IMG/VR virus record: IMGVR_UViG_3300031578_000149
Location: 1-38,489 of that record
DNA length: 38,489 bases
Source: a virus
Reading direction: 5' to 3' (one strand)
The notes beneath the pieces were generated by a model. That model was not told the origin of the DNA. It did not search any database and was given only the letters and a program-made list of their open reading frames with translations. The position numbers were made by a program, and so were the translations under genes. Shown here in pieces: positions 2,458-34,952 of the stretch. How positions within the stretch are numbered: position 1 is the stretch's first letter; every line of letters starts with the position of its first letter.

Positions 2458-2994
2458 TTAAACATACACTCGCTTTAATAAACGATTTAGCCAGCTTTTG
2501 CCGAATCGCCAAAATTTTGATAATGTTCTATAACTTACTTCATTTCTTTCAATATATTTTCGATAGAGAAGTTCTTGGTTTGCTATTGATTTAATCGCAC
2601 CAAGCGTTATCTGACCGAAGATTCCGTCTCTGGCAATGGTTTTGCCAAAGTCAAAGAATAAAGTGTCCTGTAGTAGCTTTACGGCTGTTTTACGACCTCT
2701 ATTGACTGATAAATCAAACAACTTAAATGCTAAACTATTATCAGGGATTTCTTTATAAAGATCATCCCAGAAATGGATATAGTAAAATCTCTTTGTAGTA
2801 TCTAAAGCAAGGAAAGTTTTTCCATCATCAAATAAAGTTTTAACAACATTATAAGTACTCGGATAGTCTCTGCTTGTTATTCCATAAATAGTTTTACCAC
2901 CACTATCATAAGGATCATTCGCATACCCACCTTCGTTAATTATTAATTCCTGGAAGGTATTATCAAAATCATCTTCTCTGTTTTTATCACACAT
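2458..2994 (-). CDS. phage endolysin, glycoside hydrolase family 108 type
   Basis: 178 residues. The N-terminal half has the GH108 (phage muramidase) signature: NEGGYANDPYDSGGKTIYGIT at residues 20-40 with the probable catalytic glutamate E21, followed by a WDDLYKEI segment. The C-terminal part (residues 95-150, FKLFDLSVNRGRKTAVKLLQ and DGIFGQITLGAIKSI) matches the peptidoglycan-binding half usually fused to it. No signal peptide is present, so release to the periplasm should need the holin-like protein encoded at 4210-4542. It stands in the lysis module after a spanin-like and a peptidase gene. Confidence 0.88.
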   Translation of the reverse strand: MCDKNREDDFDNTFQELIINEGGYANDPYDSGGKTIYGITSRDYPSTYNVVKTLFDDGKTFLALDTTKRFYYIHFWDDLYKEIPDNSLAFKLFDLSVNRGRKTAVKLLQDTLFFDFGKTIARDGIFGQITLGAIKSIANQELLYRKYIERNEVSYRTLSKFWRFGKSWLNRLLKRVYV

Positions 2995-3024: not shown

Positions 3025-3648
3025 TTAGTTTAGCCTTATTCCAAATCCAAGTTGTATGCCTGGCTCAATAGTTTTACCATTATAGTTTAAGCCAAGTCCC
3101 AAATACGTTATAAATCTTTTGTAGAAAAATCCTGGCGGTTCACATTCTTTTAATTTTAATAATTCATTTTCTCCGGTAAGCATATCAACGTTAGATTGCA
3201 TTTGTTTTATAATTAAGGATTGCTTTCCATTAATCTGATCTTTAAGTAATAGTAGCTCTAAACTTTCTTTAAACCGATTAAAATACTTAGCACCAAATCC
3301 TATTTCTCTATAAGTGAGATATTTTGTATTATCTGGTTTTGTCCCAAGTAGTTCTAAACCTTTTCTATATTCAGGAATTGATTGTGTACTATCACTTGCA
3401 ATAGTGCTATCGATAGATTCTTCTTTAGCCTTATATTTATAAACGATTTTAGGTTCTAAAGATTTTAAACTATCGATTTCTTTTTGCTTAACTTTTATAA
3501 CTTTGTCCAGACTATCTTTTGCAAACGCAATCCGCTTTTCATATTTATCAACTATGGATTGTATATCTTTCTCAGGTTTTAAATTCCACCCAATGAATCC
3601 ACCTATGATTAAGCAGATTGCAAATGATATTAAAATTGTTTTATTCAA
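3025..3648 (-). CDS. single-span membrane protein with coiled coil; candidate i-spanin
   Basis: 207 residues. A membrane helix at about residues 5-22 (ILISFAICLIIGGFIGW) is followed by a long charged coiled coil at 28-68 (DSLDKVIKVKQKEIDSLKS) and a second helical stretch near 120-165. The C-terminus is short and beta-like (FITYLGLGLNYNGKTIEPGI), resembling an outer-membrane strand hairpin. An inner-membrane anchor plus periplasmic coiled coil between peptidase and endolysin genes is what Rz-type i-spanins look like, though this one is longer. No separate lipoprotein o-spanin was seen; the C-terminal strands might stand in for it (inference). It overlaps the upstream peptidase gene by 8 bases. 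Confidence 0.7.
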   Translation of the reverse strand: MNKTILISFAICLIIGGFIGWNLKPEKDIQSIVDKYEKRIAFAKDSLDKVIKVKQKEIDSLKSLEPKIVYKYKAKEESIDSTIASDSTQSIPEYRKGLELLGTKPDNTKYLTYREIGFGAKYFNRFKESLELLLLKDQINGKQSLIIKQMQSNVDMLTGENELLKLKECEPPGFFYKRFITYLGLGLNYNGKTIEPGIQLGFGIRLN

Positions 3649-6578: not shown

Positions 6579-9500
6579 AACTTCCTTCAGACTTACATTG
6601 TCTAAATAAAATTTATCTTCAACTGTGATAAGATCAGCATCGCCATCTTTAAGTAATCTAATTGAAATACTTGTCTTATTTTCAGTCACCGAAAAATCAA
6701 CGGAAATATCAGTCCAAGTTCCAACGGTTGTTTCCGTCCTTATCACTTGTGTTGTTGTTCCCCAAGTATAAAATTGTATCTGATTTCCTGTAGTATTACC
6801 CGCAGGGATATAATAAGATGCTGTAAGATGATAAGTTTTACTTGGTGTTAGACCTACAAGCTGTGTAACTCTCACATTAACTGTCCCTGTTGCTGAATCT
6901 AATAGACAAGGTATATTAGGCGGTGATACAGCATTCCAATCGGTATTATACCATTTTGCAGTAGAAGCATACCCAGTCCAATTAGCTATGTCGGATGTAA
7001 ATGCCCCGTTAATTATTAGTTCTTCTCCGTATGAAGAGCCGCCTCCACCACCGCCTGTATCACTTGCAACTCTTTCAAATGCACCAACATCCCAGGTTAA
7101 ACCAACTCTTGATGTATCTCGATAATCTATGGTAAAATAAGCGGTTAAATTCGTGCCTTCATCAATACCGGAAGAACCTGCTGCAAGCATATATTTAGAA
7201 GCAGTATCTGAGAGTGTAGTGAAATCATTATCTATAAGAGTAAATCCTGTTGTGTCTGAATTTGCGTCTTGGCTAAAGGTGCTTTTCCAATTGGTATAAT
7301 TATAAGTTGTCCCGCCAATGGAAATATAATCAGTAGAGGCTGTTTCATATTGATTATAGTCAACATCGAAATAAGGTGTAGGTATTCCAGAAGCGAATGT
7401 CCAAAATCTATCTTCTTCAAAATTGACAATATTATTCTTAAAAAATACGCTGTCTATTGCTCTTATATATGTGTGCTGTCCGAAAGTATGTGTACCTTCA
7501 GTAAGAATCATTGTGTTATTGTAAGCGTGTAGCGATAGATATGGTGAAGGTGGATAATAAATTCCATCAACATACCCATTTTCGCCGCCTATGCCCTGAT
7601 TCCATCTAAATGTTTGGAAGATCGATCCAGCGTTTTTGTGGATAACAATGATATTATTATATACCCATACGCTGCCGCCGCCATTTTGTAATGTGAAAAT
7701 ATCAGTTGCACAATCAGAAGTATCAAAATCAGTTGTAATAAAATTATTATGGATTTTAGTTGGGGCGCTGCCTCCTGCAAGATTATTATAAGGTAACTGT
7801 ATTATATCTCTACTATTTGTTGTCTCACTAAATACTCTTCTCGACCTTGCATTAAAAGTATTGTATGCTATTTCAAGACCATAACTCAACATTATTTTTA
7901 TTGGGTCAGGGTTACTATAAGTGTTAGCTGCATCCACTTCGGATAATGCGTAACTTTCAAAAGTGTTATTTAATATTTTACAGAAATTATTTTCTTGTCC
8001 AATTACTCCCCATCCATAAGTAAAGTTAAATTGATTGCCAATCAGATTTACATAATTACACTTCATCAGATAAAGATTATCTCTCCTGCTTGAAGTAGCA
8101 TCAGTTTTGAATTTTAGGTAAGACACTTCTGTATAACTTGCTTGATTTAGATAGAATATTTGTGCAAGAGTACTTGTGGTAAATACAGGTACTCCATTAT
8201 GAGTAGCATCTATCCCCCTTGTATAAACAATAGGTTTTATAGCAGTGCCTGTTGATGTGATAAACAAAGTAGTGGTTAAATTATATACCACACTATCCGC
8301 TCCACCGTCAACAAATAAAGTATCGCCAGAATGAATACTGGCGAAACTAAAGGTTGGGAAATCATCCATATTAGCCCAGCTTGTAGCATTGCCCGCACTA
8401 ACCGCAGTTAAACCTACATACCAATTCTTAGTAATAAAATCACTTACTCTGCTGTTGTAAGCACTATCATAATTACTTAGTTTATACGCACTGTTAGACG
8501 CTATTAAATAATAAGTATATGGGTTTGTATTGTATCTTGTTGAAACATTATTATCAGACCAAGTTGAAACATTGTATGCAACTGAATCTAATTTAGAATA
8601 ATCCACATTGTTAGTTGATCGCCATATTTGGGTATATCCCTGTGAATTTGTCGGTGTCCAGGTAAGTGTAATCGTACTCGGTAATGAATGAGAAGGCACT
8701 TCGGTAGAAGCTAAATCTAATAATGGATTCGGAGTAGTAGAAGTATCTACTATTATAATTGTTCTAATCAACGCCTCAAGTCTTGCTATTTCAGTAATTA
8801 AAAAAGCATTATCAACATTATAATCGGTTTGATCTACTTTAGTATTTACTTCTGCTGTTGTTGATAGAGTACCACTCAGGGGAGGTAAAGCTACTGCAAC
8901 TCCATCAGTAGGAGATGATATACTTGAACCATTATATACTAATCTACTAAGATCATCTGTCATTAAAGTGGCAACTCCGCCAGTTCCATCTCTTAATTGT
9001 ATCTGTCCTTCTGTGTCGGTATCATTACCAAGTTTTAGCGTTGGAACAATTAAAGTCGGACTCGTACCCGCAACCGTTACTGTCCCTGTAAATGTAGGGG
9101 ATGCAATATCAGCTTTCGTGGCAATTGAATCGGAAATAAATCCTTTTGTCTCTGCCACTGTTGGAAGTGCTGCAATGTCTTGAGCTAATGAGTCTGTGAT
9201 AACCAAAGATGCTTTTGCATTTATCCTGTTTGATAGACCAAGCGTATCGGCTGAATTTAATTTCAGATTCAGACTATCACTCATTTGTGCAATAGATGCT
9301 TTTAAATTTATCCTATTACTCAATGAAGTGGTATCTGTTGAGACTAATACCGGCAATCCATTAAGATACATTTTACCACTATTACCACCAGTTATAGTTG
9401 TACTCTCTTCATTTATCCCATCACTTATCGATATGCTTGCTGCTTTAGATGTTGCCCAATTACCTAATGTAATAGAACTGCTATCCACAACTGTTAATTT

Positions 9501-13100: not shown

Positions 13101-14348
13101 TATAGGCTTCTCTACCACCTCTGGTTTACTTTGAACCACGTTCTCTTTTCGTGGTTCATTCTCAATAGGTTTTACTTCACTCTTAGGTAAAACGCCCTCC
13201 GATTTGAGCTTCTCCGATAGGCTTGGAGGGCTTGTTTCTAATTTTACTTCAATAGGCTTTATGGGCTCTGCTTTAAACTCTGGTTTGGTGTCAATAATAG
13301 GTTTAGGTTCTTCAAATTTAAAATCCGTAAATCCTGTTTCTTGGTTTACTTGTTCTGGATTAACAGTTAGCGTTTCTACCTTCGGTATCTCTTTGGGTTT
13401 GAAAGTAATTTTTGTATCGATCTCTTTGGATATTTTTTGTAAAGTACTACGTTCTTGTAACAGGGTTTTAACTGATTCCGGGTCGCCTTGTTGTTCTTGT
13501 AGCTTAGTTTTGTTTTCGCTTAAAGAAGTTTTTACTTTCTCTTTATCTATCTTTAATTCTTCAAGTGTTTTAATTTGTTTAGGAGTTCCGATTTCACCCT
13601 TCTCATTGGCAATAAAGGTAGTTGGTTGTTTCACTTCTTGAGGGACTTCCTCTTTTGGTAAAACTTTAACTTCGTTTACTTTAGGTGCAAGTTTATTCTT
13701 TAATTTACCAGCACCTCCAAATCCTAATATAGTTGCCCCTAATTTACCCGCTTCATCTAATGCACTTTGAGTTTCTTTAAATTGTTCTTCAGTTGCACCC
13801 CGTGGCATTAAACGAGTTGCTATCATCCCTTTTTTAATTTTGGAATCTACATACTCAGGTGCAATACCATTCATTCTTAAATAATTATCAATACTTTGTT
13901 TACCTAAGTCGTAAAGCATCGCAGGTGTTTGGAAAACTCCATTTAATCCTTCGGATATAAAATTACCAACTCCCTTAGCATCACCTTTTTCATCAGTAGT
14001 GCCTACTAACTTATCACTTGTTTTTAAGAAGTCTTCACCAAAAGCTAAAGGTACTGTTGCCATTAAGAATGGAACTCCCGCAACTCCTTGAGCTATGTTT
14101 AATGCGCCTGCTAATGGATTATCTAATAATTGAGAAGCACCTTTGTTAAATAATCTTCCGGGTTCTTTTAACGCTTCAATAGTAGCATCACCTTTAGGGA
14201 GGATAGGTTTGAAGAACCAATCCCAACCATCACTTTCTTTTGGCTTTTTGGTATCAGTCTTTTCGGGTTGGACAGACTTCTCCTGTTCAGCAATCCCTAT
14301 TAGCTGATCTAATCTTTCTAATATCCTTTTCTTCTTATCATCGGGCAT
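10134..14348 (-). CDS. very large internal virion / DNA-ejection-like protein
   Basis: 1404 residues, the largest protein here. The N-terminus is charged (KKKRILERLDQLIGIAEQEK). A low-complexity P/E/K/V-rich stretch lies at roughly 210-440, followed by helical, basic domains. The C-terminal third resembles late-phage polyvalent or ejection proteins: RDVTNRVISAAGGEVFYKDM, then FWSSPTGKILTQWKSFGYKM, then hydrophobic helices (ALVAYGVAGETVSTIIDYV; GVVGAVLGPTVGEAIQ). Position after tail genes and two smaller putative ejection genes, extreme length and membrane-active C-terminus fit the T7 gp16 role of entering the host envelope at infection. No lysozyme motif was spotted. The start directly follows the upstream stop (TAAATG). 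Confidence 0.65.
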   Translation of the reverse strand: MPDDKKKRILERLDQLIGIAEQEKSVQPEKTDTKKPKESDGWDWFFKPILPKGDATIEALKEPGRLFNKGASQLLDNPLAGALNIAQGVAGVPFLMATVPLAFGEDFLKTSDKLVGTTDEKGDAKGVGNFISEGLNGVFQTPAMLYDLGKQSIDNYLRMNGIAPEYVDSKIKKGMIATRLMPRGATEEQFKETQSALDEAGKLGATILGFGGAGKLKNKLAPKVNEVKVLPKEEVPQEVKQPTTFIANEKGEIGTPKQIKTLEELKIDKEKVKTSLSENKTKLQEQQGDPESVKTLLQERSTLQKISKEIDTKITFKPKEIPKVETLTVNPEQVNQETGFTDFKFEEPKPIIDTKPEFKAEPIKPIEVKLETSPPSLSEKLKSEGVLPKSEVKPIENEPRKENVVQSKPEVVEKPITSEPEIAKVPRSELPEKLSEKIKGEAEGKLIQIQQAVKESQGSFREQGNVGQGFETIRTEKAFTISDFPEWFSELGRNKKDVINALKKIIEDKGKDKGKLVEEVKSVILNHLKEGEEISVNIGTSGKFKKHIQGKTPPDIDVGEFLQRFEKSKFTSKSLDEAFKEYESETSFKFGANEKLTGNSIIDRLRTEALDEFKNRQSNPSGFNPLDYKAGIKLGAYHLKNGVVKFADWSAQMIKDLGEKIKPQLLRIWSEVKKFGEDLGKIALEKVSDFVESKYNPARPLKIIDQSLMDKYLSPEIKSETKLKDGVKDIAEELDVPYSESWIGKSRNYLVAQSNKVVGKMGDSGKIFAGKIEKMKDFERAFVGIPSEIAFDIKRLNKAEQKSLSDIRQAKRFNRKEPIPVNDNVKSMNERLNKYYDSLVSEYQKRHIETENKYGSKHDFTPLPNYEPRKLTFKLDELGVVRRADGKPVFNEKRDKIIKAMVKEGKAKNNAEASYILDNFIMKSRIKKAGNIEYARELDLPEQFYVSDPAELLISYSVSAGKRLGFIDNFGAKGEIASDLLNTIKKDGYNENFARDLYRYETGQLNAQEHRMIQGVNKAKGWQALTKFTPFTTLRNALQGFLGTTTRGNLKAGVVGALKSLTVEGKRSAYRSGALVDQIERIIQTEMVGGGDLAGKYIDLIGFTARDVTNRVISAAGGEVFYKDMLKRIKTDSFLKARALREFEKIGLDAKEIVKRGEFTPDEINLIKRTFAGDAQFNIRPSDLPLFWSSPTGKILTQWKSFGYKMAQLINDNILKEVRHGNLAPLTTALVAYGVAGETVSTIIDYVREVFGNALKGKIDLTGKNTFEKSLFTSWTKKQNDAIALRIISDVSSLGAMGLFVDVVRSLGYGKAGVVGAVLGPTVGEAIQTTEDILSPTGEVLTGDYKNFIPKTTQGVVKTTERNIPAAGILRTVGATKIIDKWTKEIFPSSSGSRQQRQSRNTRR

Positions 14349-15192: not shown

Positions 15193-15777
15193 TTAATAAC
15201 CTCCGTATCCTGCTACACCACTTGGTTGACTTCGTCTGCTATTACCACCAGAACCAGCCAGCGCAGCAGTTCCAGCTAACGAAGCGCCTCCTGTAAATGG
15301 CGCAGCTGCAATACCACCAATCATACCAATTGATTTCATTATAGAACCCCAATCGGTTTTATTGGCTTGGTCTATTTCGGCAGTTCTATCCATCGTATGT
15401 GCAAATGAACCTCCTATTTGACCTAATTGGCTAAGTATGTTCTGTTGCATATTAAGACCAAATCCTTCTACGCCTGTGTTAATTTTATCCTGCCGTTCTT
15501 TACTAAAGGTTTCCATTCTCTTCTTCGCAATCGCTTGTCCGCCTGCATATCCTGTACCTCCAGCCATTAAAGGCGCAAGTAAAGAATTTGCACCTATCCC
15601 GGGTGTTGTCTTCTGCAAGTAAGAAGCATACTTTTGGTATAAAGGCGAATTAAAGTCAGTCATATTCGCCAAATTAGAAAAACCTAATTGTCTAACGAAA
15701 TCTTCCCATTGAGTAAATTTGGGATCGTTGCTATTGAAATTCCCTGTGTCTAAATATCCGTTACCAAAATTTGGCAT
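15193..15777 (-). CDS. Gly/Ala-rich putative internal virion protein
   Basis: 194 residues. The C-terminal half is glycine/alanine-rich and hydrophobic (SIGMIGGIAAAPFTGGASLA), followed by a polar S/R/Q tail. A second Gly/Ala block occurs near residues 65-80 (SLLAPLMAGGTGYAGGQAIA). Such membrane-prone proteins are typical of podovirus ejection cores (T7 gp14-like in style, not by alignment). AAAGGAG precedes the ATG. First of three adjacent putative ejection genes. Confidence 0.62.
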   Translation of the reverse strand: MPNFGNGYLDTGNFNSNDPKFTQWEDFVRQLGFSNLANMTDFNSPLYQKYASYLQKTTPGIGANSLLAPLMAGGTGYAGGQAIAKKRMETFSKERQDKINTGVEGFGLNMQQNILSQLGQIGGSFAHTMDRTAEIDQANKTDWGSIMKSIGMIGGIAAAPFTGGASLAGTAALAGSGGNSRRSQPSGVAGYGGY

Positions 15778-32273: not shown

Positions 32274-32498
32274 ATGATAGAGACCACAGGATTCAGCGAT
32301 GATCTGGAACCTAAAATAGAAAGTTTTATAAAAGATGAGTTAGACGCTAAACGTGTCAAAATTCGCTCAATCTCTAACCATAATTATTCCTTTAACGCAG
32401 ACGGCGTTAGGGGTGAAGTGTGGTTAAATTGCCTCTCTAACGATGAAGAGATTCGAAATAATGACATTCTCTATGATGTTGAGTTATTGATTGACTGA
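32274..32498 (+). CDS. small early protein 1, 74 residues
   Basis: It begins after AAAAAAAGGAGTACAAA. Acidic, with a helix (FSDDLEPKIESFIKDELDAK) and strands (RVKIRSISNHNYSFNADGVR; DILYDVELLID). First gene of the plus-strand array; followed 5 bases after its stop by structured element copy 1. No family recognised. Typical size for a host-takeover early protein. Confidence 0.7.
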   Translation: MIETTGFSDDLEPKIESFIKDELDAKRVKIRSISNHNYSFNADGVRGEVWLNCLSNDEEIRNNDILYDVELLID

Positions 32499-32503
32499 TC
32501 CTT

Positions 32504-32544
32504 TTGCCTTGCGCTTTAGGCGTGGATCGAATCCAACAAGGCAA
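32504..32544 (+). repeat. intercistronic structured element, copy 1
   Basis: Outer stem TTGCCTTG (32504-32511) with CAAGGCAA (32537-32544). Inside are hairpin CGC-TTTAG-GCG (32512-32522) and hairpin TGGAT-CGA-ATCCA (32523-32535). The second hairpin abuts the 3' side of the outer stem as a tRNA T-arm does. Then comes a shared AT-rich leader with AAAGGAG before the next ATG. There is no T-run, so it is not a standard terminator. Confidence 0.8.
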
Positions 32545-32587
32545 CTAATGTTCTAAATATTTCTTAAACTTAAAAAAGGAGTACAAA

Positions 32588-32779
32588 ATGAAAACAAAAG
32601 AAATAGTATATCAGCAAGGCAATAATTGGATTTGGTCGCATAACGCTGATAGTCGGGGCTTATGCGAGACCGAGCAACTGCCTTATTGGGTGCAAACAAA
32701 AAAAGAGGTGCGTCAATACATAGCCGATAGATATAATAACAGAGGTAAGAGTCCAGATTTTAGGATTTGCTGGGCTTAA
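32588..32779 (+). CDS. small early protein 2, 63 residues
   Basis: AAAAAAGGAGTACAAAATG leader. Basic, W/Y-rich: EIVYQQGNNWIWSHNADSRG, then LPYWVQTKKEVRQYIADRYN, ending FRICWA. Probably a single small alpha/beta domain. It bears no visible similarity to its neighbours although the flanks are near-identical repeats. Function unknown. Confidence 0.7.
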   Translation: MKTKEIVYQQGNNWIWSHNADSRGLCETEQLPYWVQTKKEVRQYIADRYNNRGKSPDFRICWA

Positions 32780-32784
32780 TCCCC

Positions 32785-32825
32785 TTGCCTTGCGCTCCAG
32801 GCGTGGATCGAATCCAACAAGGCAA
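32785..32825 (+). repeat. intercistronic structured element, copy 2
   Basis: The 91 bases from 32785 match copy 1 (from 32504) except for two bases (TT to CC) in the loop of the first hairpin (CGC-TCCAG-GCG). Outer stem and second hairpin are identical, as are the leader and ribosome site that follow. Confidence 0.8.
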
Positions 32826-32868
32826 CTAATGTTCTAAATATTTCTTAAACTTAAAAAAGGAGTACAAA

Positions 32869-33057
32869 ATGAAAAAATATCAACAAAAAGCTGCAAAGTT
32901 AGCAGCGAGTATATTTGAAGAACTAAAGCTAAGAGATCAAAGGAAATATGATCTCTGCACATATCGTGGCATTTGCGCAAAGGATTCTATTTCAAGTTCG
33001 ATTCAAAGAGAAATAGAACAACTAATCGCTGAAGCGGCGAAAGATGAACGGAGTTAG
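32869..33057 (+). CDS. small early protein 3, 62 residues
   Basis: Same leader as genes 1 and 2. Helical and strongly charged: KKYQQKAAKLAASIFEELKL, then YDLCTYRGICAKDSISSSIQ, then REIEQLIAEAAKDERS. Two cysteines (CTYRGIC) could bind metal. No family recognised. Confidence 0.7.
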   Translation: MKKYQQKAAKLAASIFEELKLRDQRKYDLCTYRGICAKDSISSSIQREIEQLIAEAAKDERS

Positions 33058-33067
33058 TTTGATCCCC

Positions 33068-33111
33068 TTGCCTTGCGCTATAGGCGTAGTGTTTCAATCA
33101 CAACAAGGCAA
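33068..33111 (+). repeat. intercistronic structured element, copy 3 (variant)
   Basis: Same outer stem (33068-33075 with 33104-33111) and first hairpin with a changed loop (CGC-TATAG-GCG). The second hairpin is replaced by GTG-TTTCAAT-CAC. Here the standard leader is absent; another structured segment (33116-33189) follows. Confidence 0.75.
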
Positions 33112-33115
33112 CTAA

Positions 33116-33189
33116 TAGGGCTTATGAGTGCGGCACAAAATAGAAAGCTAATTGACTAATAATAAATAATAGTGAACCGACAAGCCCTA
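33116..33189 (+). other. 74-base segment closed by TAGGGCTT/AAGCCCTA
   Basis: TAGGGCTT (33116-33123) pairs perfectly with AAGCCCTA (33182-33189) across 58 bases. Inside is a short hairpin GTG-CGG-CAC whose loop could pair with ACCG near the 3' side. It forms the leader of the 54-residue gene. It may be an RNA regulatory leader; it does not fold as a tRNA. Confidence 0.45.
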
Positions 33190-33223
33190 ACTTTTTATTA
33201 ACTAATAAGAAAGAGAGAACGAA

Positions 33224-33388
33224 ATGTTAGCACAAATGAAAATCCACAACAATAAATTGATTTTGGTAGAAGTAGAAAAGGAGTCCGAAATAAAAAAGTT
33301 GAGAGTAGATCCAATAATTGAACAAAGAAAACAGCGTTTAGAATGGGTTAAATTATACAAAAGTGTTAAGCTTTGGGATTGTTCTTAA
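33224..33388 (+). CDS. small early protein 4, 54 residues
   Basis: ATG at 33224 after AAGAAAGAGAG, a different ribosome site from genes 1-3. It encodes MLAQMKIHNNKLILVEVEKE, then SEIKKLRVDPIIEQRKQRLE and an aromatic end (WVKLYKSVKLWDCS). A short strand pair then a basic helix. Function unknown. Its stop is 6 bases before element copy 4. Confidence 0.65.
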   Translation: MLAQMKIHNNKLILVEVEKESEIKKLRVDPIIEQRKQRLEWVKLYKSVKLWDCS

Positions 33389-33394
33389 TCCCCT

Positions 33395-33440
33395 TGCCTT
33401 GTGTTTGCTATGGGAACTGTGTTTCAATCACGACAAGGCA
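33395..33440 (+). repeat. intercistronic structured element, copy 4 (variant)
   Basis: Outer stem TGCCTTG (33395-33401) with CAAGGCA (33434-33440). The first hairpin differs in sequence but can still pair (GTTT with GAAC, G-T allowed); the second is GTG-TTTCAAT-CAC as in copy 3. It is followed by a diverged but recognisable leader ending AAAAAAAGGAGTTCAAAATG. Confidence 0.75.
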
Positions 33441-33481
33441 CTAAGTTCTAAATAATTTCTAATTAAAAAAAGGAGTTCAAA

Positions 33482-33616
33482 ATGAAAACTAAAAACACAA
33501 AAGGCGCAAATAAAATGGCGAAAAGAAAATCAATCCCATTCTGGATGATTTGCTATAATAATCCATTTGATAGACTTGTGTGGACATCTATTAAAAGGAA
33601 GAGGGGAATGAAATGA
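33482..33616 (+). CDS. small basic early protein 5, 44 residues
   Basis: It encodes MKTKNTKGANKMAKRKSIPF, then WMICYNNPFDRLVWTSIKRK and RGMK. Very basic with aromatic patches. The last gene preceded by a copy of the structured element; its stop overlaps the next start (ATGA at 33613-33616). Function unknown. Confidence 0.6.
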   Translation: MKTKNTKGANKMAKRKSIPFWMICYNNPFDRLVWTSIKRKRGMK

Positions 33617-33918
33617 CAACAGAAAATCAAAAAATGATGCAATACCTTAAAGATAACGAAATTAAAGCAACGCCTAAATTTTTATGGAAAGGTTCTTTAA
33701 AGGGTTGCTGGAGATTGCATAATTATAAAAAAGTAAACGGACAAATCGTAAGCGAAAACTGGGCTGGTAATTATGATCTTCAAAATAAACTTACAGCACT
33801 TGGATTTGTTGACTTTGATGGCAAACCATTAAGCGATCTTTGTGGTAATGGCGGCTGGTTTAGTGTTTTTTTGAGAAATAATGAATTAACTAATAAATTT
33901 TGCTTTAATAAATTATAA
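33613..33918 (+). CDS. hypothetical early protein, 101 residues
   Basis: Opens MTTENQKMMQYLKDNEIKAT and continues W/G-rich (KFLWKGSLKGCWRLHNYKK; LCGNGGWFSVFLRNNELTN). Predicted alpha/beta. Similar short W-rich proteins are found among phage early genes, but no family is certain. Coupled to the upstream gene. Confidence 0.68.
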   Translation: MTTENQKMMQYLKDNEIKATPKFLWKGSLKGCWRLHNYKKVNGQIVSENWAGNYDLQNKLTALGFVDFDGKPLSDLCGNGGWFSVFLRNNELTNKFCFNKL

Positions 33919-33934
33919 GAAAGAGAGTAATGAA

Positions 33935-34129
33935 ATGAAAATATTTGAAGTCGCAAATTGCAGAGGCTATAAACCTATCGAAACAGACCTTAAAAAGGTA
34001 TTAAATATCTTAGCTTCTTTAAGGATGGAATTAAACCCATGCAAAGCAAAATCAGTGATCGATAAATTTGCCGGTGAAATGGGATATTTGTTAGTAAAAC
34101 AAAATCCTAAAATTACTATTTACAAATAA
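33935..34129 (+). CDS. hypothetical early protein, 64 residues
   Basis: AAGAAAGAGAG precedes the ATG. It encodes MKIFEVANCRGYKPIETDLK, then KVLNILASLRMELNPCKAKS, then VIDKFAGEMGYLLVKQNPKI. Helical with a final strand. Not recognised. Confidence 0.65.
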   Translation: MKIFEVANCRGYKPIETDLKKVLNILASLRMELNPCKAKSVIDKFAGEMGYLLVKQNPKITIYK

Positions 34130-34142
34130 AAAAGGTGATAAA

Positions 34143-34316
34143 ATGAAAATAGGACTATCAAAAGAACGTATCCATTTGTATTCTAAATGTACCATTGTTG
34201 GGATAGCCTCCGAATACCCTCAAAATAATTGGTATAAACTGTTTTATAAAATATTGGATATAGATAAAATTTATACTATCTCCGAACTTAAAAAGGATGT
34301 GAGGTTGACAAGATGA
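34143..34316 (+). CDS. hypothetical early protein, 57 residues
   Basis: AAAAAAGGTGATAAA precedes ATG 34143. It encodes MKIGLSKERIHLYSKCTIVG, then IASEYPQNNWYKLFYKILDI and a charged end. Its stop overlaps the next start (ATGA at 34313-34316), supporting translation. Function unknown. Confidence 0.6.
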   Translation: MKIGLSKERIHLYSKCTIVGIASEYPQNNWYKLFYKILDIDKIYTISELKKDVRLTR

Positions 34317-34519
34317 ATGTTAAAGGAATACACTGGATAAATAACGATGTAGTAGTTGATTATATTATGGAATATAATTTGCCTGACGATTTTTCGCAAT
34401 GTAAAAGGAATATTATGTTTAATAAATATTATTATTTCCACGATTATGATTCGACAAAGACAGAACTACTGAATAATTTATTAATCGGGAAAATGGAAGA
34501 AAAAGAGGTGATGAAATGA
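34313..34519 (+). CDS. hypothetical early protein, 68 residues
   Basis: MNVKGIHWINNDVVVDYIME opens it; it is rich in N, Y and D and ends with an acidic/basic helix (NNLLIGKMEEKEVMK). ATGA overlaps at both ends tie it into a coupled run. Not recognised. Confidence 0.65.
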   Translation: MNVKGIHWINNDVVVDYIMEYNLPDDFSQCKRNIMFNKYYYFHDYDSTKTELLNNLLIGKMEEKEVMK

Positions 34520-34719
34520 AAACCAAAGAATTAAAAAACAGTTACTATTTGGAAGCGGAGAATGATTTAGAGAATTGCATAATAGCAGTTATCGTGAATA
34601 GGATAGACATTAAAGATCATCCAGAACTTTTTATAAAAGAAGGTTGCTTCCAGAAAAAAGGCAGGACTTATAATTATATGGAAATCCCACTTTGGGAGGA
34701 GGAGATAAATGACAACTAA
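34516..34719 (+). CDS. hypothetical early protein, 67 residues
   Basis: MKTKELKNSYYLEAENDLEN, then CIIAVIVNRIDIKDHPELFI and an acidic tail. AAAGAGGTG precedes the ATG. Its 3' end overlaps the XRE gene by 11 bases, and the XRE ribosome site (GGAGGAG) lies inside it. Not recognised. Confidence 0.65.
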   Translation: MKTKELKNSYYLEAENDLENCIIAVIVNRIDIKDHPELFIKEGCFQKKGRTYNYMEIPLWEEEINDN

Positions 34720-34912
34720 AGAAATTAAAAAAATACGTCTCGATGCTGATCTTACTCAAGCCCAGCTTGCTGAAGTGTTGCAGCTATCGAGCCAAACTCG
34801 GATCTCAGAGTATGAGCACGGCGTAAGGAATCCATCAAAACAAACTATTATGCTTTTAGATTTGGTGGCGAAAGGAAAATTAAAATACCAGGTCCGGCAA
34901 AAAACAAAATAA
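34709..34912 (+). CDS. XRE-family helix-turn-helix regulator
   Basis: 67 residues: almost only the DNA-binding domain. The HTH runs over residues 5-37 (KIRLDADLTQAQLAEVLQL, then SSQTRISEYEHGVRNPS), with the TQ-LA--L----TIS-WE-G pattern of Cro/CI-type repressors. GGAGGAG precedes the ATG. As last gene before the terminator it may shut down its own operon by binding near 32197-32225 (inference); the palindrome between those boxes is a candidate site. No dimerisation or cleavage domain, so not a full CI repressor. Confidence 0.88.
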   Translation: MTTKEIKKIRLDADLTQAQLAEVLQLSSQTRISEYEHGVRNPSKQTIMLLDLVAKGKLKYQVRQKTK

Positions 34913-34924
34913 CCATTGCACCAA

Positions 34925-34952
34925 CCCGATAAACTTTCTTATCGGGTTTTTT
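34925..34952 (+). terminator. intrinsic terminator of the rightward early operon
   Basis: Perfect 8-bp stem CCCGATAA (34925-34932) / TTATCGGG (34939-34946), 6-base loop, then TTTTTT. It begins 13 bases after the XRE stop, before the convergent gene whose stop is at 34951. Confidence 0.9.

Follow-up and report, generated by a model that had tools for sequence, protein, structure and literature searches.

What does a structured element do when it follows, one copy at a time, a series of small genes that share nothing with each other? This question is raised by IMG/VR virus record IMGVR_UViG_3300031578_000149, whose full 38,489 bp were analysed and are referred to here as the window. The terminase, portal and head genes are found on the minus strand, and a plus-strand run of small genes extends from 32274 to 34912, closed by an intrinsic terminator-like hairpin. 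Each of the first four genes of this run has one element at its 3' side. The features are as follows, with the parts of the elements named in tRNA terms.

32274..32498, plus strand: small gene 1, 74 aa, stop codon 5 nt upstream of copy 1
32504..32547, plus strand: element copy 1, acceptor-like stem 32505-32511/32537-32543, middle hairpin 32512-32522, 3' ACTA 32544-32547
32523-32535, plus strand: T-arm-like hairpin of copy 1, 7-nt loop ATCGAAT (32526-32532)
32545..32587, plus strand: leader with AAGGAG ribosome-binding site, 3' of copy 1, identical at 32826-32868 (copy 2)
32588..32779, plus strand: small gene 2, 63 aa, stop codon 5 nt upstream of copy 2
32785..32828, plus strand: element copy 2, acceptor 32786-32792/32818-32824, T-arm 32804-32816 (loop ATCGAAT), 3' ACTA 32825-32828
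32869..33057, plus strand: small gene 3, 62 aa, stop codon 10 nt upstream of copy 3
33068..33114, plus strand: element copy 3, acceptor 33069-33075/33104-33110, T-arm 33090-33102 (loop TTCAATC), 3' ACTA 33111-33114
33224..33388, plus strand: small gene 4, 54 aa, stop codon 5 nt upstream of copy 4
33395..33443, plus strand: element copy 4, acceptor 33396-33401/33434-33439, longer middle region 33402-33419, 3' ACTA 33440-33443
33420-33432, plus strand: T-arm of copy 4, loop TTCAATC
33482..33616, plus strand: small gene 5, 44 aa, first gene past the array
34709..34912, plus strand: final gene of the run, XRE-like helix-turn-helix regulator, read by eye from the sequence
34923..34948, plus strand: intrinsic terminator-like hairpin with T-run, end of the run

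A preliminary description of this locus had reported four elements, each with the outer stem TGCCTTG/CAAGGCA and two inner hairpins, and both their coordinates and their stems were confirmed. The pattern TGCCTTG-N(20-45)-CAAGGCA occurs four times on the plus strand of the window versus none in 100 dinucleotide shuffles. Aligned from 32504 and 32785, copies 1 and 2 agree over 91 bp with two differences, both within the first hairpin loop, as had been described; the 97-nt block that begins six bases upstream contains two further differences. The leader 3' of copy 4 (33441-33481) is related to that of copies 1 and 2, and the leader 3' of copy 3 differs from those of the other copies. The second hairpin of copies 3 and 4 had been said to be replaced in sequence and still able to pair. 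This holds, but only 3 bp pair, and in copy 4 the first hairpin is replaced as well. The genes of the array are indeed unrelated, as BLASTP at E<=1 found no similarity among the small proteins; comparison with PHROGs and Pfam gave no family match for them.

Copies 1–3 adopt a three-way junction in both the minimum free energy (MFE) and the centroid folds. In copy 4 the junction forms weakly, the centroid consists of the outer stem only, and 30 of 200 shuffles fold equally well. When the outer stem was kept fixed and the inside shuffled, the two inner hairpins were retained in about 4% of cases. All four copies begin 5–10 nt past a stop codon.

Other structures were noticed in the window. A second, longer inverted repeat (TAGGGCTT/AAGCCCTA, arms 58–59 nt apart) lies 3' of copy 3 at 33117-33191, where the spacing to gene 4 is unusually long and is filled by this repeat, in which no T-arm was seen. 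On the minus strand between 35000 and 38200, other hairpins are present in intergenic gaps, and at least two gaps have the motif TAACAGRYGNGCGATTACNCGC in common. A weak match to the Rfam abiF RNA (39.9 bits, cut-off 37), possibly due to chance, falls within a 1404-aa ORF at 13194-13230 on the minus strand.

Is the element confined to this phage? A scan of IMG/VR with the outer stem plus downstream bases returned two matches. The match in L006 lies inside a coding sequence and is a chance match. The other (L005) is a real relative in the Tenacibaculum phage Gundel_1, placed in the gap 3' of the first annotated early gene, and the same early region contains a like fold with another outer stem, TGGCGTG/CACGCTA, in the gap 3258-3355. 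Gundel_1 (L022) also carries an unannotated Pistol self-cleaving ribozyme between two small early genes (2564-2642, plus strand; 65.6 bits, cut-off 34.5). The exact-stem scan of GTDB genomes gave seven matches, none with the architecture; the single match of an ATCCCC-prefixed scan was coding and due to chance. With BLASTN, the element block had only short and weak matches in phages and plasmids, most of them falling in its AT-rich leader. The array was not seen in the TerL relatives L008–L012, among which only L009 extends far enough upstream, and it has no array. In L014 (5900-6400), found as a relative of P0006, the window's 101-aa protein, every small gene has its own consensus sigma-70-like promoter and its own terminator-like hairpin, which is another way of separating small early genes. 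A covariance search, which the preliminary description had suggested, gave five weak matches over 396 Bacteroidota genomes, judged to be chance on inspection; pattern and descriptor searches in phages did place the element beside different small genes.

Scans with the sequence of the second hairpin led to L030, L057, L079/L100/L101, L087 (two copies), L088 and L107. Because the same patterns also retrieved true phage tRNAs, with T-arms TCGGATCGTTACCGA or TCGGATCGTAACCGA, we read the second hairpin, which resembles the T-arms of true tRNAs in other phages, as a T-arm. T-loops TTCGAAT or TTCGATT also occur in cases outside the search patterns, namely one L087 copy and Gundel_1 788-846, the latter resembling a shortened tRNA. 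The search was then widened to a descriptor that asked for a T-arm, an acceptor of 6 bp or more, and RCNA 11 or 12 nt past the loop. In 595 kb of strand-bases it gave 30 matches in 18 phage sequences, whereas shuffled sequence yielded none and reversed sequence one. Of these 30, six read as true Gundel_1 tRNAs, recovered unprompted, four of which are also called by ARAGORN. Most of the remaining matches lie between small same-strand genes. Copy 4 of the window escaped this descriptor because its loop-to-tail distance is 10. L087, retrieved for two copies, proved to have six elements within 3.7 kb (shuffle expectation 0.1), and L101, retrieved for one, has four on that strand (expectation 0.05). 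When the flanks around a given T-arm match were shuffled, the descriptor was passed in 0–0.17% of trials. Among about 36 places examined around T-arm matches there were two new passes, each of which fell in a gap separating small genes. In the L030 phage the second copy is confirmed by a feature not used by the search, a downstream leader, CTATTTTTTA-GTGAAACTTTTA, that it has in common with the first, and L087 has two near-identical element blocks 623 bp apart. On the minus strand of L087 (7790-9250) a second related hairpin (GCGGTTTTTCC...GGGA...CCGC) lies 5' of three elements, as if the unit were compound there. Nearly all elements are on the strand of the flanking genes, in same-strand gaps, usually 5–18 nt past a stop codon. 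Candidates were also noted in cultured phages:

L141 (Cellulophaga phage phi46:3) 19090-19139 and 20997-21068, minus strand: candidate elements in intergenic gaps
L140 (phi38:1) 15678-15750, minus strand: longer candidate element in an intergenic gap

No elements were found outside tRNA genes in the Bacteroidota phages B124-14, crAss001 (first half) and Versailles. The scans covered phage sequences, GTDB genomes and plasmids, with search patterns biased toward one T-arm sequence.

Twenty elements from several phages were compared, and the comparison well supports, at the level of sequence, a conserved core made of an acceptor stem and a T-arm, that is, the top half of a tRNA, with an RCNA 3' tail and no anticodon arm. 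That the elements are tRNA-like at all we regard as very probable. The acceptor stem has 6–8 bp in all 20, the T-arm loop has 7 nt of the NNCRANN type, and 11–22 nt separate acceptor and T-arm, with no anticodon arm between them. C at position 56 (20/20) and the purine at 57 were imposed by the descriptor; A58 (17/20) was not. Position 55 is U or G, with G in 11 of 20. The distance from the T-loop to position 73 is 11–12 nt in 19 elements, close to the tRNA, where 12 nt lie between the T-loop and NCCA. The encoded tail is RCNA, with N other than C in 19 of 20. For several members this type of tail (ACTA/ACAA) was imposed by the search patterns, and the wider descriptor demanded RCNA of everything newly found; it was free of imposition at first exposure in the window copies, Gundel_1 788 and 3284, L030, L060b and the TTCGAAT copy of L087. 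The Gundel_1 tRNAs called by ARAGORN likewise have no encoded CCA. ARAGORN called no tRNA for the window elements.

The MFE fold contains the middle hairpin in only 14 of the 20 elements, so the three-way junction does not belong to the core. The preliminary description had spoken of a cassette built on a conserved element: a structured element it is, but its conservation does not lie in the sequence of the outer stem, which has 14 distinct six-base acceptor cores among the 20, and the three-way junction is optional. The acceptor stems of different phages can be wholly different and still pair. For eight elements taken from four phages, 98.9% of stem cells are paired, with changes on both sides at 7 of 11 pairs, and the pairing drops to 27–52% when the partner is slid by 1–3 columns; the statistic is partly circular, because pairing was itself a selection criterion for some members. 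The flank shuffles and the wider descriptor serve as independent checks. A structured RNA-type element that comes in blocks with its leader before unrelated small genes is upheld, and so is its recurrence in other phages, where the neighbouring small genes differ and the stem changes are paired. Neither of the outcomes that had been named as fatal to that idea, an element found nowhere else or an unchanged gene order with element sequence drifting freely and no paired changes, was observed.

These paired changes also bear on the possibility that the element with its leader is a shuffling block, whose DNA homology drives swaps of small genes by recombination as in the T4 PeSLs. Repeated blocks do flank unrelated genes in the window, the L030 phage and L087. 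However, the stems between phages, and mostly within L087 and L101, have no common sequence yet remain paired, so that homology alone is insufficient. The T4-type promoter/stem-loop cassettes to which the preliminary description had likened the array are defined by a promoter, and no promoter signal above chance was found here: sigma-70-like matches in the region number 32 versus 28.6 in shuffles, and none lies in the gaps after copies 1, 2 and 4. No swap event was seen either, and we consider this explanation improbable. An intrinsic terminator was rejected as well, since no T-run lies 3' of any copy.

Recombination could in principle also act on single-stranded DNA, the folded element being an attC-like site that makes a cassette together with its gene. 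Small genes that lack promoters of their own and each precede an inverted repeat whose interior varies have this look, and the L060 element at minus 10694 reads GCCTAAC/GTTAGGC, the form of the attC core. Read by eye, however, RYYYAAC ... GTTRRRY fits neither the window arms TTGCCTTG/CAAGGCAA nor 19 of the 20 listed elements, the leaders duplicate together with the element and not with the gene, and the T-arm and its ruler are left unexplained. An attC-like site is therefore scarcely credible.

If the elements are tRNA-like, they might simply be decayed tRNA genes carried along as functionless hitch-hikers. Several of the pattern-matched phages and Gundel_1 do carry tRNA genes, and Gundel_1 788-846 looks like a shortened one. 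Decay is nevertheless very unlikely, given pairing kept through so many different stem sequences, exact placement past the stop codon, repeated arrays and no gradient of decay. The elements could instead be small self-cleaving ribozymes of a new class, in the same niche as the Gundel_1 Pistol; the Pistol in a sister gap, the compact junction and the AGCGANA loop conserved in many relatives would fit this. However, almost no unpaired nucleotide is conserved besides the T-arm loop and RCNA, and no Rfam ribozyme model matched, which also removes the known self-cleaving ribozymes; we give such a class very little credence.

Among the three functions that had been put forward, namely recombination, mRNA processing and translation control, mRNA processing fits best because the core is the acceptor and T-arm half of a tRNA; recombination is unsupported. 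The Pistol in a sister early gap makes RNA cutting at early junctions plausible in Gundel_1. Since the core is a known type of RNase P substrate and a Pistol occupies the sister gap, we propose punctuation by RNase P. Each element would be an anticodon-less tRNA mimic, with a variable insert replacing the D and anticodon arms, positioned just past the stop codon of a small early gene. The mimics would fold within the polycistronic early mRNA, where host enzymes that process tRNA ends would recognise them. RNase P, which gauges the distance between the T-loop and the acceptor 5' end, is the most likely of these. A cut at the 5' side of the mimic would free the upstream mRNA a few nucleotides past its stop codon, and the downstream mRNA would begin with paired bases. 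A further cut by RNase Z may occur at the 3' side, and the outcome would be a tRNA-style punctuation of the phage operon. Structure, paired changes, placement and recurrence in other phages can be read from the sequences, and from them we infer recognition, cleavage and benefit.

Several findings speak against cleavage. C75 helps binding to bacterial RNase P, and position 75 is not C in 19 of 20 elements. The frequent G at position 55 and the imposed features of T-loop and tail weigh on the same side. The window T-stems have only 3 bp plus a possible G.A, the ruler from T-loop to tail is 11 nt in the window and 10 nt in copy 4 instead of the 12 nt of tRNA, and copy 4 is a poor folder by energy. 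That host RNase P, perhaps with RNase Z, cuts the polycistronic early mRNA at the mimics thus appears to us an evenly balanced proposition. The same facts of structure, placement and strand, with loops and stems conserved in shape and not in sequence, would be expected if the tRNA-like fold stayed uncut as a roadblock or docking site (for EF-Tu, a phage protein, or an enzyme that modifies tRNA or adds CCA to it), there to stabilise the 3' ends of small mRNAs or to insulate neighbouring ribosome-binding sites. A plain hairpin would suffice for a roadblock, however, and neither the loop-to-tail distance nor RCNA would be needed; we consider an uncut fold fairly unlikely.

RNase P punctuation may reach beyond the window. 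We tentatively suggest, with a confidence just short of even, that serial anticodon-less mimics cut by RNase P or RNase Z are a feature of small-gene operons in phages, many probably on Bacteroidota hosts, a link that rests on Gundel_1 and phi46:3, and that the DUF2693-FD RNA is one branch of them. If this is true, a class of intercistronic phage RNA elements, on nearly all of which ARAGORN and Rfam are silent here, would acquire a function that can be tested directly, an Rfam orphan would find its place, and separate expression and stability could be set for many small host-takeover genes from one promoter. Among cultured phages, elements occur in Tenacibaculum phage Gundel_1 and, as candidates, in Cellulophaga phage phi46:3.

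The full-text open-access literature, with most subscription journals outside its scope, contained no description of such elements. The closest known RNA is DUF2693-FD (Rfam RF02926), whose consensus has the same layout of 7-bp outer stem, short first hairpin and 5-bp second hairpin, the latter with a 7-nt loop AGCGAGA and joined directly to the outer stem. L079 12720-12769, whose 3' end reads ACCA, is the best-scoring relative at 39.7 bits (cut-off 44.5), and the L101 record has an element at 9090-9139 that nearly matches the family. The DUF2693-FD model matched neither the window copies nor most other elements. The Rfam output for this family, an RNA of no assigned function, states no tRNA relation, and the one open-access paper found on it concerns structure prediction. 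The window elements count as a divergent variant of this orphan architecture, not as members.

Compared with tRNA, the elements have the acceptor (6–8 bp against 7 bp) and lack the anticodon arm. Their T-arm-like hairpin has a 7-nt loop that only partly follows the TTCRANY type of tRNA. They resemble the minimal substrates of RNase P, acceptor-T-stem-T-loop model hairpins, in acceptor plus T-arm, in C56 and A58 of the T-loop, and in the ruler of about 12 nt. Natural non-tRNA substrates of RNase P include the T4 gene 32 mRNA, the phage M3 and C4 RNAs and the his operon mRNA (PMC11143913), and some natural substrates lie in polycistronic mRNA, as the elements do. Unlike the known substrates, the elements follow one another in series, with a single one in each gap of a phage small-gene operon, and their tail is RCNA and not RCCA. 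The T4-type PeSL cassettes (Arbiol 2010, Comeau 2014, as relayed in PMC4503421) comprise small early genes and repeated blocks with stem-loops right after the stop codon. The stem-loop directly past the upstream stop is shared by all four window copies (5–10 nt), whereas the window block has no sigma-70-like promoter signal above chance and no terminator, and its stem-loop is tRNA-like. In mitochondria, too, structures of the tRNA type separate the genes of a polycistronic transcript; the marks there are functional tRNAs, whereas the phage elements have no anticodon arm. If the proposal is correct, tRNA-like punctuation, best known from mitochondria, would extend to phage operons and have a viral counterpart.
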